A stretch of DNA of 64,000 nt, taken from Nakamurella alba. GTDB taxonomy: Bacteria > Actinomycetota > Actinomycetes > Mycobacteriales > Nakamurellaceae. Every line of letters starts with the position of its first letter. Positions within the stretch are counted from its first letter, which is position 1. The stretch covers positions 1 through 64,000 of the forward strand of contig NZ_WLYK01000002.1 in the NCBI RefSeq assembly GCF_009707545.1, given 5' to 3'. Both the position numbers and the translations under genes were made by a program. This document shows positions 55,676 through 58,808 of this stretch, piece after piece. Below the pieces are notes generated by a model. That model ran no database searches and had not been told where the DNA came from. It saw only the letters and a program-made list of their open reading frames with translations.

Positions 55676-57241
55676 TCAGGCGGCGAACGGCCAGCGCCCC
55701 TGCTCGCCCGCCTCCAGCAGCGGGATCATGTCGAACCCGGCGTCGGTCAGGCCGCCGAAGGTGTGCCGGTTGCCGACCGACGACGGCGAGTGGCCGAACC
55801 GGTAGCCGAGGAGATTCCAGGTGTAGATCGGGATCTCCGCCGGTACCGCCCGGTCCGGGCGGGCGCCCGCCCCGCGCATCGCCTGCTCGTCGGTGACGAT
55901 CACCACCCGGTCGTGACCGGCCCAGTGCCGCCGCAGCGCCTCCGCGGTGTTGGTGCCGCCGAGGTTGCCGAACCGGCCGACGACCCGGAGCACCGACTCG
56001 CCCCTGCGGAACCGCACCCGCTCGGAGTCGGTGCCGAAGGCGACCAGATCGGCCGACTCCGCCCGCACCGCCAGGGCGGACCCGAACAGCGCGGCCGCGT
56101 CCGCCCAGGTCATCCGCGACCGCTCCGCCAGCTGCCCGAACATCGAGCCGGACCGGTCGACCAGCACCAGGGTCCGGCCCGGCAGGGCCGGCACCCGGGT
56201 CAGCGAGCACTGCAGCGCCTTCTCCAGGGCCGGCGCCCACCGCAGCTCCAAGGCCGACAGGTAGGCGGCCAGGTAGCGCAGCGGCAGCAGCGTCGACCGG
56301 CTCACCTCGTCCGGATCGGCCAGCCGCGCCGCGACCTTCGCCGCGACGTCGTCCGGCACCCCGGCGACATCGAAGTTCCGCAGGTTCCGGAGCAGCGCGA
56401 GGTACCCCATGGACGGGATGACCGCCTGCCAGGCGGCCGCGTCCAGCGGACCCTGCAGCCAGCCGGCCAGCGCCTCCCAGCTGACGCCGGCCGCGGCCAG
56501 CCGGTCGGGGTCGGCCAGCACCGCCCGCCGGTCGGCGACCGGGACCCGGCCGAGCTCGGCCCGGCGCGCCAGCATCGGCAGCCGGTCGTCGACCGGATTG
56601 CCGCGGTCGTGCCGCACCTCGATCGCGCGCCGGAACAGCGCACCCTGCGCCGCCGACGACGGACGCGGGTGCACCAGCTCGATGACGTCGCCGAACCGGA
56701 TCGCCCGCTCCGCCGAGTCCCACTTCAGCAGCGACCGCTCGGTGTACAGCCGGACCACCGCGTCGGCCACGCCCCGCTTGACCGGCTGCGGCAGCGCACG
56801 GCCGAACGTGCCGGTCCAGTAGCCGAGGAACTCGCCCGGCTCGTCCGCCCGCCGCAGCACGGAGGCCACGAGATCCCGGTTGCCACCGGTGATCCCGGCG
56901 GCGAGTCGGGCGTGCACGAACTCGGCGGCGCCGACCAGCGACGCGGTCCGCAGACCGGCGCCGGTGCGCACCCACCGCAGGAAGCCGGTGGTCCACTCCG
57001 GATCCTCGACGGCCGAGGCCCGGACCAGGGTGACGAACCGGTCGTCACGATCGGCGGCACGCTCGTAGAACGAGTCCTGGCCGACCATGCCGGCGACCGC
57101 GACCAGGAACAGCTCGCCACGACGGTCGCGGGCGAAACCCGGCGCACCCTCGTGGGTCACACCGCTCGGAGTGCGCTCGGCGGTGATCGGCGAGCCGGGT
57201 ACGGGCCGCTGCGCGGCGGCCCTGCGGTTGAAGATCGACAT
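55676..57241 (-). CDS. rsr: TROVE-domain protein, Ro60 orthologue (Rsr)
   Basis: 521 aa. Residues 1-345 are the helical TROVE ring that binds RNA in Ro60, with FLYWTGTFGRALPQPVKRG and the conserved VRTGAGLRTASLVGAAEF among the recognisable parts (cited as LPQPVKRG and GAGLRTAS). A von Willebrand A domain follows with MIDAS DRSGSM at about 362-367. In bacteria with characterised systems Rsr binds Y RNA and helps exoribonucleases and rRNA maturation or degradation. ATG at 57241 follows GAAGGAGG. A Y-RNA-like fold lies upstream on the same strand. Confidence 0.88.
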   Translation of the reverse strand: MSIFNRRAAAQRPVPGSPITAERTPSGVTHEGAPGFARDRRGELFLVAVAGMVGQDSFYERAADRDDRFVTLVRASAVEDPEWTTGFLRWVRTGAGLRTASLVGAAEFVHARLAAGITGGNRDLVASVLRRADEPGEFLGYWTGTFGRALPQPVKRGVADAVVRLYTERSLLKWDSAERAIRFGDVIELVHPRPSSAAQGALFRRAIEVRHDRGNPVDDRLPMLARRAELGRVPVADRRAVLADPDRLAAAGVSWEALAGWLQGPLDAAAWQAVIPSMGYLALLRNLRNFDVAGVPDDVAAKVAARLADPDEVSRSTLLPLRYLAAYLSALELRWAPALEKALQCSLTRVPALPGRTLVLVDRSGSMFGQLAERSRMTWADAAALFGSALAVRAESADLVAFGTDSERVRFRRGESVLRVVGRFGNLGGTNTAEALRRHWAGHDRVVIVTDEQAMRGAGARPDRAVPAEIPIYTWNLLGYRFGHSPSSVGNRHTFGGLTDAGFDMIPLLEAGEQGRWPFAA

Positions 57242-57439
57242 CAGCGGTCCTCCTTCTGTGGGGGTTCGTGCGGGGTTCGTTGCGGGGTGGCATCTGATGG
57301 TGGCAGGTCGGACAACACCTGCGGTGCAGGCAGTTCCACGGGGGTCGGCGCTGGTGCGCCGGCCACCGTGGGACTGCAAGGTCGGGGGCGCCCGGGAACG
57401 GGTCGGCGACGGTCGCGCCGGTCCGGACCAGCCGGTGCC

Positions 57440-57501
57440 GACGCCCGCGGAATCGAACCACGGTTGCGCCAGAAGTAACCGTCACCTGCGCATCGGGCGT
57501 C
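57440..57501 (-). ncRNA. Y RNA candidate (YrlA-like) tRNA-like module
   Basis: The minus strand folds as a tRNA lacking the anticodon arm. The acceptor-like stem is GACGCC (57496-57501) with GGCGTC (57440-57445). Two linker bases lead to a D-arm TGCGC / GCGCA (57488-57492 and 57465-57469) with an 18-base loop, and a short linker leads to a T-arm CGTGG-TTCGATT-CCGCG (57446-57462). Bacterial YrlA Y RNAs carry such a module and are usually encoded next to rsr. Mature ends and the Ro-binding stem are not resolved; the transcript would be longer, roughly 57420-57560. Confidence 0.65.
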
Positions 57502-57613
57502 CGTGCCGTCACCGAGTTCGAGTCGGTGCCGGGAACCCGCGCACGCGGCGCGGCCCGCGACCGGTCACCACCACCGCCCGGCGAACCGGAGGGGCGTGGT
57601 GCCGGACCGACGG

Positions 57614-57643
57614 TCGAGAAGTAACCGGCACCTGCGCACCGGT
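57614..57643 (-). repeat. Second partial copy of the Y-RNA D-loop segment
   Basis: AGAAGTAACCGGCACCTGCGCA (forward strand, from about 57617) repeats the D-arm sequence of the module at 57440, with one change inside that stretch, 145 bases upstream. I could not find a matching T-arm. It may be a second, degraded or differently folded Y RNA. Confidence 0.5.
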
Positions 57644-57839
57644 GACAACAGCGGACTGACCCCCGTTGCCCGGTCGACACTCTCGCGCAACCGGACACCA
57701 CGGACGTTACTCCGCAGCCGCTGTCGTGTCGTGCCATTTATCCGGCCGCCGGTGGATCTCCGGGCCGCTGCGATCCGACGATCCTCTGTTCGCGGGGGTC
57801 AGAGCCGTGGGGTCAGCGCCGAAGGTTCATGGCCGTGCG

Positions 57840-58808
57840 TCAGGGCCGCGCGTCGTCCATCGTCGGTCCGGCTGCTGCTCCGCCGCGCTCCGGCGGCAGC
57901 AGCCCGCCGAGTGCCTGCCGCATCCGCTGCACCACCAGCTCGACGACCACGGCGGTGGGCCTGGACAACGGGACGTCCTTGCGGTGGACGATCGCGAACT
58001 CGTCGAAGAGCCTGGGGCGCAGGGAGTTCCAGTGGAGTCCGGGGATCCTGTCGCCGAGCCGGCGCAGCACACCTCTCGCCGCGATGGTGTCCACCACCCC
58101 GGTGGCGGCGATCTCCAGCGAGGTCTCGACGTCCTCCACCAGCACCTGCACGTCCAGGTTCTCCCCGATCGCCTGCACCCGACTGGCCAGCCCGAGCCAG
58201 GCCGGGTCCTGATCGCGCCAGCTCGACTCCGACAGTGCCAACCGGGCCCTGGCCAGCGCGTCCGCGGTCACCGGCCGGCGCACCCGGTCCGGATCGGTGC
58301 TGACGTAGACCTCCTCGTCCCGGCCGACCGGCCGCACCGCCAGCGAGGCGTCGGGGACCGGCAGCGCGATGAGCGCCGCCTCCAGCCGGCCGCGGCGCAT
58401 CTCCGCCAGCACGTGCTGGCTGTGCTGGCCGATCAGTTCCACCCGCAGATCCGGGTACCGCTGCAGCAGGTCCGCGGCGAGCTCGGCCCCGACGTAGAGC
58501 CGGGCGGTGCCGAACAGCCCGAACCGCACGGTCCCGCTGAGCATCTCCCTGGTCGCCGCCACGGCGTCCGCCGCCTCCTGTGCCGCGGCCAAGGTGCGCC
58601 GGGCGTGCGGCAGCAGCAGGTCGGCCGCCTCGGTCGGCACCACCCCGCGCCCGACCCGGCGGAAGAGCGACACCCCGAGACTGCGCTCGAGGGTGCGGAT
58701 CTGCTCCGCGACCGAGGGCTGGGCCAGTCCGAGGTCGCTCGCCGCAGCGGTCAGTGAGCCGCCCTGGACGGTGGCCTCGAAACAGCGCAGCTGGTGCAAG
58801 GTGAGCAC
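57840..58808 (-). CDS. LysR-family transcriptional regulator
   Basis: 322 aa. N-terminal winged helix with QLRCFEATVQGGSLTAAASDLGLAQPSVAEQIRTLE, recognised by LAQPSVAEQIRTLE. A C-terminal substrate-binding-like domain (about 90-300) follows. GTG at 58808 begins VLTLHQL. Divergent from the EamA exporter by 72 bases, which it probably controls. Confidence 0.88.
   Translation of the reverse strand: MLTLHQLRCFEATVQGGSLTAAASDLGLAQPSVAEQIRTLERSLGVSLFRRVGRGVVPTEAADLLLPHARRTLAAAQEAADAVAATREMLSGTVRFGLFGTARLYVGAELAADLLQRYPDLRVELIGQHSQHVLAEMRRGRLEAALIALPVPDASLAVRPVGRDEEVYVSTDPDRVRRPVTADALARARLALSESSWRDQDPAWLGLASRVQAIGENLDVQVLVEDVETSLEIAATGVVDTIAARGVLRRLGDRIPGLHWNSLRPRLFDEFAIVHRKDVPLSRPTAVVVELVVQRMRQALGGLLPPERGGAAAGPTMDDARP

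Follow-up and report, generated by a model that had tools for sequence, protein, structure and literature searches.

We identified a probable Ro ribonucleoprotein locus in Nakamurella alba, within the first 64,000 nucleotides of contig NZ_WLYK01000002.1, the stretch analyzed here and called the window. Two Y RNA genes, Y1 then Y2, lie in tandem on the minus strand upstream of rsr, the gene of a Ro60-like protein. In the reading we favor, to which we assign a probability of about 0.82, Rsr sits on the end stem of each RNA and the insert most likely tethers PNPase. The assignment rests on the genes themselves, the RNA fold (covariation in relatives and folding energy), the association with Rsr, a Ro60 fold predicted for the protein, and a PNPase gene present in the genome.

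The rsr gene (55676-57241, minus strand) encodes a protein of 521 aa, P0001, which matches the Pfam TROVE family (PF05731) with 41.1 bits (cut-off 23); a ribosome-binding site, AAGGAGGA, was recognized by eye just 5′ of the gene. The AlphaFold model of P0001 (mean pLDDT 88.3, pTM 0.87) predicts the Ro60 fold, a ring of HEAT repeats with a von Willebrand A (vWA) domain. In Foldseek searches the model resembled vertebrate Ro60 (1yvp, from Xenopus; TM 0.77, 14% identity) and the D. radiodurans Rsr structure 2nvo (TM 0.60), and all 13 matches at E ≤ 0.001 were Ro60 or TROVE proteins. D362, S364, S366, T430 and D451, the residues of the MIDAS motif (DxSxS, T, D), are invariant among 21 aligned proteins. 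The frame is intact, and the metal-site residues of the vWA domain are retained. A sequence-only reading of this DNA had proposed an rsr gene adjoining a Y RNA, and the domain match and the predicted fold bear out the gene.

Within the genus, rsr is present in 1 of 17 genomes, that of Nakamurella alba counted among the 17; the locus is therefore patchy and probably moves between genomes, and it may be a recent arrival or decaying. It is not an rsr-yrl-rtcBA RNA-repair operon: no rtcB lies next to rsr, and the sole RtcB match of the genome is on contig C9, with rsr on C2. The gap between Y2 and rsr measures 146 nt. By eye, a 12-pair hairpin was observed on the minus strand in the gap from Y2 to the start codon of rsr (57330-57377; strands GCAGTTCCACGG / CCGTGGGACTGC in plus-strand letters, with one G-T), possibly a processing site or a cis element.

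Relatives of the two RNAs were sought around 20 rsr homologs from named genomes (Rhodococcus, Streptomyces, Sciscionella and Kineococcus) and at a further 29 homologous loci, the best matches among genomes of the class. Both strands of these 49 loci (L002-L050, 314 kb) were scanned at a score of at least 11 with a pattern designed from the first homologs, and hence not blind. Y RNA units were found upstream of rsr at all 49 loci: 122 units, 118 of them distinct, with 1-5 per locus. All 122 lie on the rsr strand, and none was found on the opposite strand in the 314 kb scanned. Two pairs of loci (L007 and L041, L009 and L029) carry identical sets of units, which leaves 47 distinct sets in the 49 loci. 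Successive units stand close together, with 65 of 73 spacers 8-30 nt long. A scan of the plus strand only, at a score of at least 10, returned 86 units, two of them from the window, and its low-scoring rows looked spurious (e.g., L019 771-860 and L046 1452-1602).

By a length-and-motif rule made in this analysis, the units fall into 70 of type A (long, with a T-arm motif), 33 of type B (bare hairpin) and 19 of type C (other). The 32 type A units that were aligned have the parts of a tRNA in permuted order: T-arm, acceptor strands, D-arm. The largest set, seen at L050 (G167, 754-1422), comprises five units in the order B, A, A, C, A before one rsr.

Covariation at homologous rsr loci, which the sequence-only reading had held would support an RNA here, is present and is strong in the unit subsets aligned. 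Two alignments were picked for diversity from the 122 units, A1 with 26 short units and A2 with 32 type A units. Changes on both sides of a pair occur in 10 of 15 pairs in A1 (43 cells versus 11.5 after shuffling, with 0 of 500 shuffles as high) and in 28 of 34 pairs in A2 (178 cells versus 46.9, again 0 of 500). Structures slid along the alignments gave 5-8 cells in A1 and 28-44 in A2, and this control weighs most because related sequences can beat shuffles without any structure. The weakest helix of A2 is the anticodon-like one, with 66.4% of cells paired, and an inner-stem pair is often open (A1 columns 19-77, unpaired in 16 of 26 units; A2 columns 19-142, unpaired in 14 of 32). Long mechanical ORFs, which are common in GC-rich DNA, span the region on both strands; we prefer an RNA to a protein reading because of the covariation.

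Covariance models R1 and R2 were built from A1 and A2, respectively, with no window sequence in either. Searched against the window, both detect Y2 (R1: 44.3 bits, E 3.4e-7; R2: 51.7 bits, E 1.3e-10) and Y1 (R1: 41.5 bits, E 1.3e-6; R2: 41.9 bits, E 2.9e-8), and these are the only strong matches, the next best having E-values of 0.095 (R1) and 0.11 (R2). An unfiltered R1 search of 57240-57900 brought up no further unit (next E 0.12). Over the whole 6.05-Mb genome the top two R1 matches lie at this locus, with Y2 best and Y1 at merely 26.8 bits (E 0.169), in shortened form; the match that follows, at 23.4 bits, is likely due to chance.

Y2, the rsr-proximal gene, was delimited by the R1 and R2 matches and is 113 nt long (57388-57500, minus strand). 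Its outer stem pairs 57494-57499 (5′ strand) with 57389-57394 (3′ strand), as placed by pair probabilities and the R1 alignment. The inner stem pairs GGUGACGG (57479-57486), whose columns covary in A1 and A2, with CCGUCGCC (57405-57412) at a probability of ~1, again in line with the R1 alignment. A UUACUUC follows the 5′ strand of the inner stem (57472-57478) in columns mostly conserved in A1 and A2. In the minimum free energy (MFE) structure the insert forms two hairpins, one at 57439-57471 that includes the T-arm and a second at 57415-57438. The T-arm itself (CCGUGG-UUCGAUU-CCGCGG, 57445-57463) has pair probabilities >0.99, and only two perfect 5-pair TTCGANN T-arms, Y2's among them, occur in the 64 kb, both strands counted. 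Under a more permissive rule of 4 or 5 pairs, 33 of 5000 shuffled inserts gave a T-arm. Y2 departs from the consensus in having GAUGCG for GGUGCG and GUUCC for GAUCU. The full-length RNA folds at -59.8 kcal/mol, with pair probabilities of 0.92-1.0 for the family fold. Folded as 57390-57501, Y2 has a z-score of -1.18, with 24 of 200 shuffles as good, and is thus unexceptional on energy alone.

Y1, likewise delimited by R1 and R2, is 139 nt long (57508-57646, minus strand) and lies upstream of Y2 across a spacer of 7 nt. In the R1 alignment its outer stem joins GUCACCG (57640-57646) to CGGUGAC (57508-57514) with 7 of 7 pairs formed, and its inner stem joins GGUGCCGG (57625-57632) to CCGGCACC (57525-57532). 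It folds at -80.2 kcal/mol (z-score -2.45), with 4 of 200 shuffles folding as well. No canonical T-arm was found in its insert, which is a set of hairpins unlike that of Y2. In the R1 alignment the outer and inner stems stay paired in both RNAs even though the stem sequences of Y1 and Y2 differ. A simple scan of 57200-57900 found neither a sigma-70-like promoter nor a terminator.

The sequence-only reading had drawn a single YrlA-type tRNA mimic at 57440-57501, with an acceptor-like stem, a D-arm and a T-arm. As drawn, this structure is largely refuted, and we regard it as very improbable. Its T-arm is real and perfect, on the minus strand at 57445-57463. The letters of its acceptor (57495-57500 with 57441-57446) do pair, 6 of 6, and the drawn fold is the MFE structure of the isolated 62-nt piece (-22.6 kcal/mol). 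In the full RNA, however, the acceptor is absent: its pair probabilities round to 0, and forcing it into full-length Y2 yields -44.9 versus -59.8 kcal/mol, a cost of ~15 kcal/mol. Neither is it a feature of the relatives, occurring in 0 of 83 T-arm-bearing units, 65 of which have a family outer stem with 6 of 6 pairs; the alignment of 32 type A relatives places the acceptor and D-arm columns 3′ of the T-arm. Folded as 66 nt, the drawn structure reaches -27.0 kcal/mol with a z-score of -0.73, and 43 of 200 shuffles are equally good, which is chance level.

The supposed D-arm, GCGCAGGUGACGGUUACUUCU, proved to be the conserved core together with the inner stem, of which 57479-57486 is a part, and it matches the best-conserved 5′ portion of related units. 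Its sequence recurs 146 nt upstream at 57617-57642 with 92% identity, a repetition that pointed to the second RNA. Where one RNA had been described there are two, Y1 having been missed, and Y2 runs on past 57440 to 57388. Only the T-arm of Y2 is tRNA-like, Y1 having no canonical one. ARAGORN called no tRNA in the window, and a tRNA reading was rejected on this basis. The central proposal, that Rsr is partnered by a Y RNA which escapes protein annotation, is supported, and Rfam at its gathering score misses this RNA as well.

Rfam returned 0 matches at gathering score in the whole window; relaxed, it gave weak matches in 57200-57900 (best E 0.58), none of them to YrlA even at E ≤ 10. The YrlA model (RF02553, Salmonella and others) matched units of relatives weakly: of six loci searched at E ≤ 5, each had a match (32.9-43.2 bits, E from 2e-3 down to 2.2e-6). 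A scan of 13 related loci at the model's gathering score of 69 gave 0 matches. Type A units share with YrlA the order T-arm, acceptor, D-arm. Y2 differs from YrlA in having no paired acceptor and D arms: the corresponding columns of the R2 alignment are partly mismatched or deleted, and these arms are not formed in the MFE structure. Y2 is not a YrlA, because it keeps the T-arm but leaves the acceptor and D arms unpaired.

Across the class, a TROVE protein is present in 54 of 394 genomes. The best R2 match reaches E ≤ 1e-9 in 50 of these 54 and in none of the other 340 (Fisher p 4e-59, relatedness ignored), at a cut-off picked after viewing the match list and in a search whose stricter filters lose weak matches. 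The cut-off was set there because partial matches, at least one of them on tandem tRNA genes, reach 4.3e-9 to 6.9e-9: many of the weaker matches listed span model positions 29-113 or 41-106 only, and of two that were checked, L087 is two tandem tRNA-Asn genes and L080 has no tRNA by ARAGORN. At E ≤ 0.01, R2 matches 171 of 394 genomes, far above the TROVE count. The four TROVE genomes short of the strict cut-off are that of the window itself (R2 1.2e-8), G187, with 59.0 bits on direct search, G355 (R2 31.0 bits; R1 34.8 and 34.3), and G370, which has no unit near its rsr. Three Y-RNA-positive genomes without a match to P0001 (G047, G331 and G399) hold a TROVE frame beside the RNA. In the actinobacteria sampled, a TROVE protein thus almost always comes with a Y RNA (50 of 54 genomes at the strict cut-off).

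Some units stand apart from any Ro gene. TROVE-negative G285 carries a full-length unit (51.3 bits, E 2.2e-8) between metK and priA, an orphan Y RNA in a genome without a TROVE match, and among the matches listed, G305 (1.8e-5) and G337 (2.9e-5) are the full-length ones in other TROVE-negative genomes. Away from rsr, full-length units sit between metK and priA at L081, L097, L099, L100 and L101, in the Streptomyces-type genomes G285, G198, G372, G364 and G387, respectively (metK alone was confirmed at L101). R2 matches at E ≤ 1e-6 lie within ~2 kb of metK in 5 of a sample of 61 genomes of that genus (G198, G432, G448, G457 and G461). A permuted tRNA-like element with a T-arm, acceptor strands and a stem-closed D-arm was noted by eye at L080:256-340; it has no Ro-binding end module, its genome (G376) has no TROVE match, and ARAGORN found no tRNA at L080.

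Mobile elements carry the system as well. Among 50,697 phage and 72,556 plasmid records, 70 and 76, respectively, have a match to an Rsr-like protein. R2 found a full-length unit at 13 of the 14 loci examined (9 viral contigs, 4 phages and 1 plasmid), and at the 14th, L074, just 63 bases precede the match. Some of the weaker R2 matches in phage loci may be tRNA genes. In Streptomyces phage Alone3 a 59.4-bit Y RNA match (L088:2269-2414) lies just upstream of a Ro-like gene, and an annotated tRNA-Ser(gct), 2274-2347, sits within it; the annotation may be a misread Y RNA. Within a solitary Y RNA unit at L096, ARAGORN calls a tRNA of unknown type (2546-2619), which implies that Y RNAs can pass for tRNAs. 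Bifidobacterium longum plasmid p1 has a pair of Y RNA matches (L092:4036-4246; 45.8 and 40.6 bits) downstream of a "hypothetical protein" 35% identical to Rsr.

In the predicted fold, the 5′ and 3′ ends of each RNA pair into the outer stem, followed by an asymmetric internal loop (RUGCGCA opposite ~10 nt), the inner stem and then UUACUUC. This module, with its paired ends and conserved core, is the presumed Rsr-binding site. The end-stem Ro site of vertebrate Y RNAs resembles it in concept. The inner stem bears a variable insert, presumably facing an effector: in Y2 two hairpins, one with the tRNA-like T-arm, and in Y1 other hairpins. With Rsr on the end stem, the insert could tether a second RNA enzyme, PNPase being the likeliest, and damaged or structured RNA would then be handed to that exonuclease, on the model of the D. 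radiodurans RYPER complex; the Y RNA may also gate the Rsr ring. We infer that both RNAs are transcribed and bound by Rsr, and a PNPase tether, together with any function in stress, is likewise presumptive.

This proposal leans on described bacterial Y RNAs. In the D. radiodurans Y RNA, as reviewed, a two-hairpin region with one T-arm-like hairpin is where PNPase binds, through its KH and S1 domains (PMC6181284). Going by that description, the Y2 insert shares the two-hairpin layout with one T-arm-like hairpin, and the Rsr-binding end stem of the RYPER RNA likewise has a presumptive counterpart here (PMC6181284); unlike that RNA, Y1 and Y2 are two in tandem. A Yrl RNA of Mycobacterium smegmatis, likewise an actinobacterial Y RNA, is reported to be Rsr-bound (PMC4726728, citing Chen 2014). 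Because Rsr-bound Y RNAs have been reported there, the kind is already known, and Y1 and Y2 are newly found members of it.

Insert types vary widely (70 type A, 33 bare hairpins and 19 other), the tRNA enzymes DusA and TruB are described as acting on YrlA (PMC8394870), and the genome encodes RtcB, on another contig. It may be, at somewhat under even odds, that Y1 and Y2 are Rsr-bound Y RNAs whose insert docks a partner other than PNPase, for example a repair ligase or an enzyme that modifies tRNA, or docks nothing, with the RNA only gating the ring. The T-arm hairpin of Y2, however, fits the PNPase-binding region of the D. radiodurans RNA as reviewed (PMC6181284), and PNPase tethering appears the likeliest job.

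Units that occupy the rsr strand upstream of the start codon at 49 of 49 loci, with nothing resembling a promoter or terminator seen from Y2 to rsr, might instead be a cis-acting leader of the rsr mRNA, with 5′ UTR structures that control rsr, e.g., through Rsr autoregulation, and that are not free RNAs. We consider this unlikely in view of copy numbers that range from 1 to 5, units placed downstream of the Ro gene in one phage (L089) and one plasmid (L092), units away from any rsr (L082, L095-L101), and the description of bacterial Y RNAs as Rsr-bound small non-coding RNAs (PMC4726728). Leader and free-RNA roles could both hold if the RNAs are cut from one transcript. An intact rsr of 521 aa with its MIDAS residues kept, and outer and inner stems that stay paired in both RNAs though the stem sequences differ, make it quite unlikely that the locus is a decayed or non-functional remnant carried in with rsr by a mobile element, even with rsr in just 1 of 17 genomes of the genus, Rsr and Y RNAs on actinophages and a plasmid, and no canonical T-arm in Y1. 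We retain a Ro ribonucleoprotein locus with two Y RNAs as the best explanation.

Rfam at gathering score is blind to the units in the window and in 13 related loci, and R1 and R2 find them. Tentatively, as an idea that is rather less likely true than false, actinobacterial Rsr loci might form a Y RNA kit, with one shared Rsr-binding stem and exchangeable effector modules: the permuted tRNA, the T-arm plus hairpin of Y2, and the bare hairpin. If so, a single Ro60 ring could dock more than one kind of RNA enzyme, and the same parts would serve again in phages and in solitary chromosomal copies. With 1-5 RNAs of differing insert type per Rsr, the partners that Ro60 gains through Y RNAs become directly testable.
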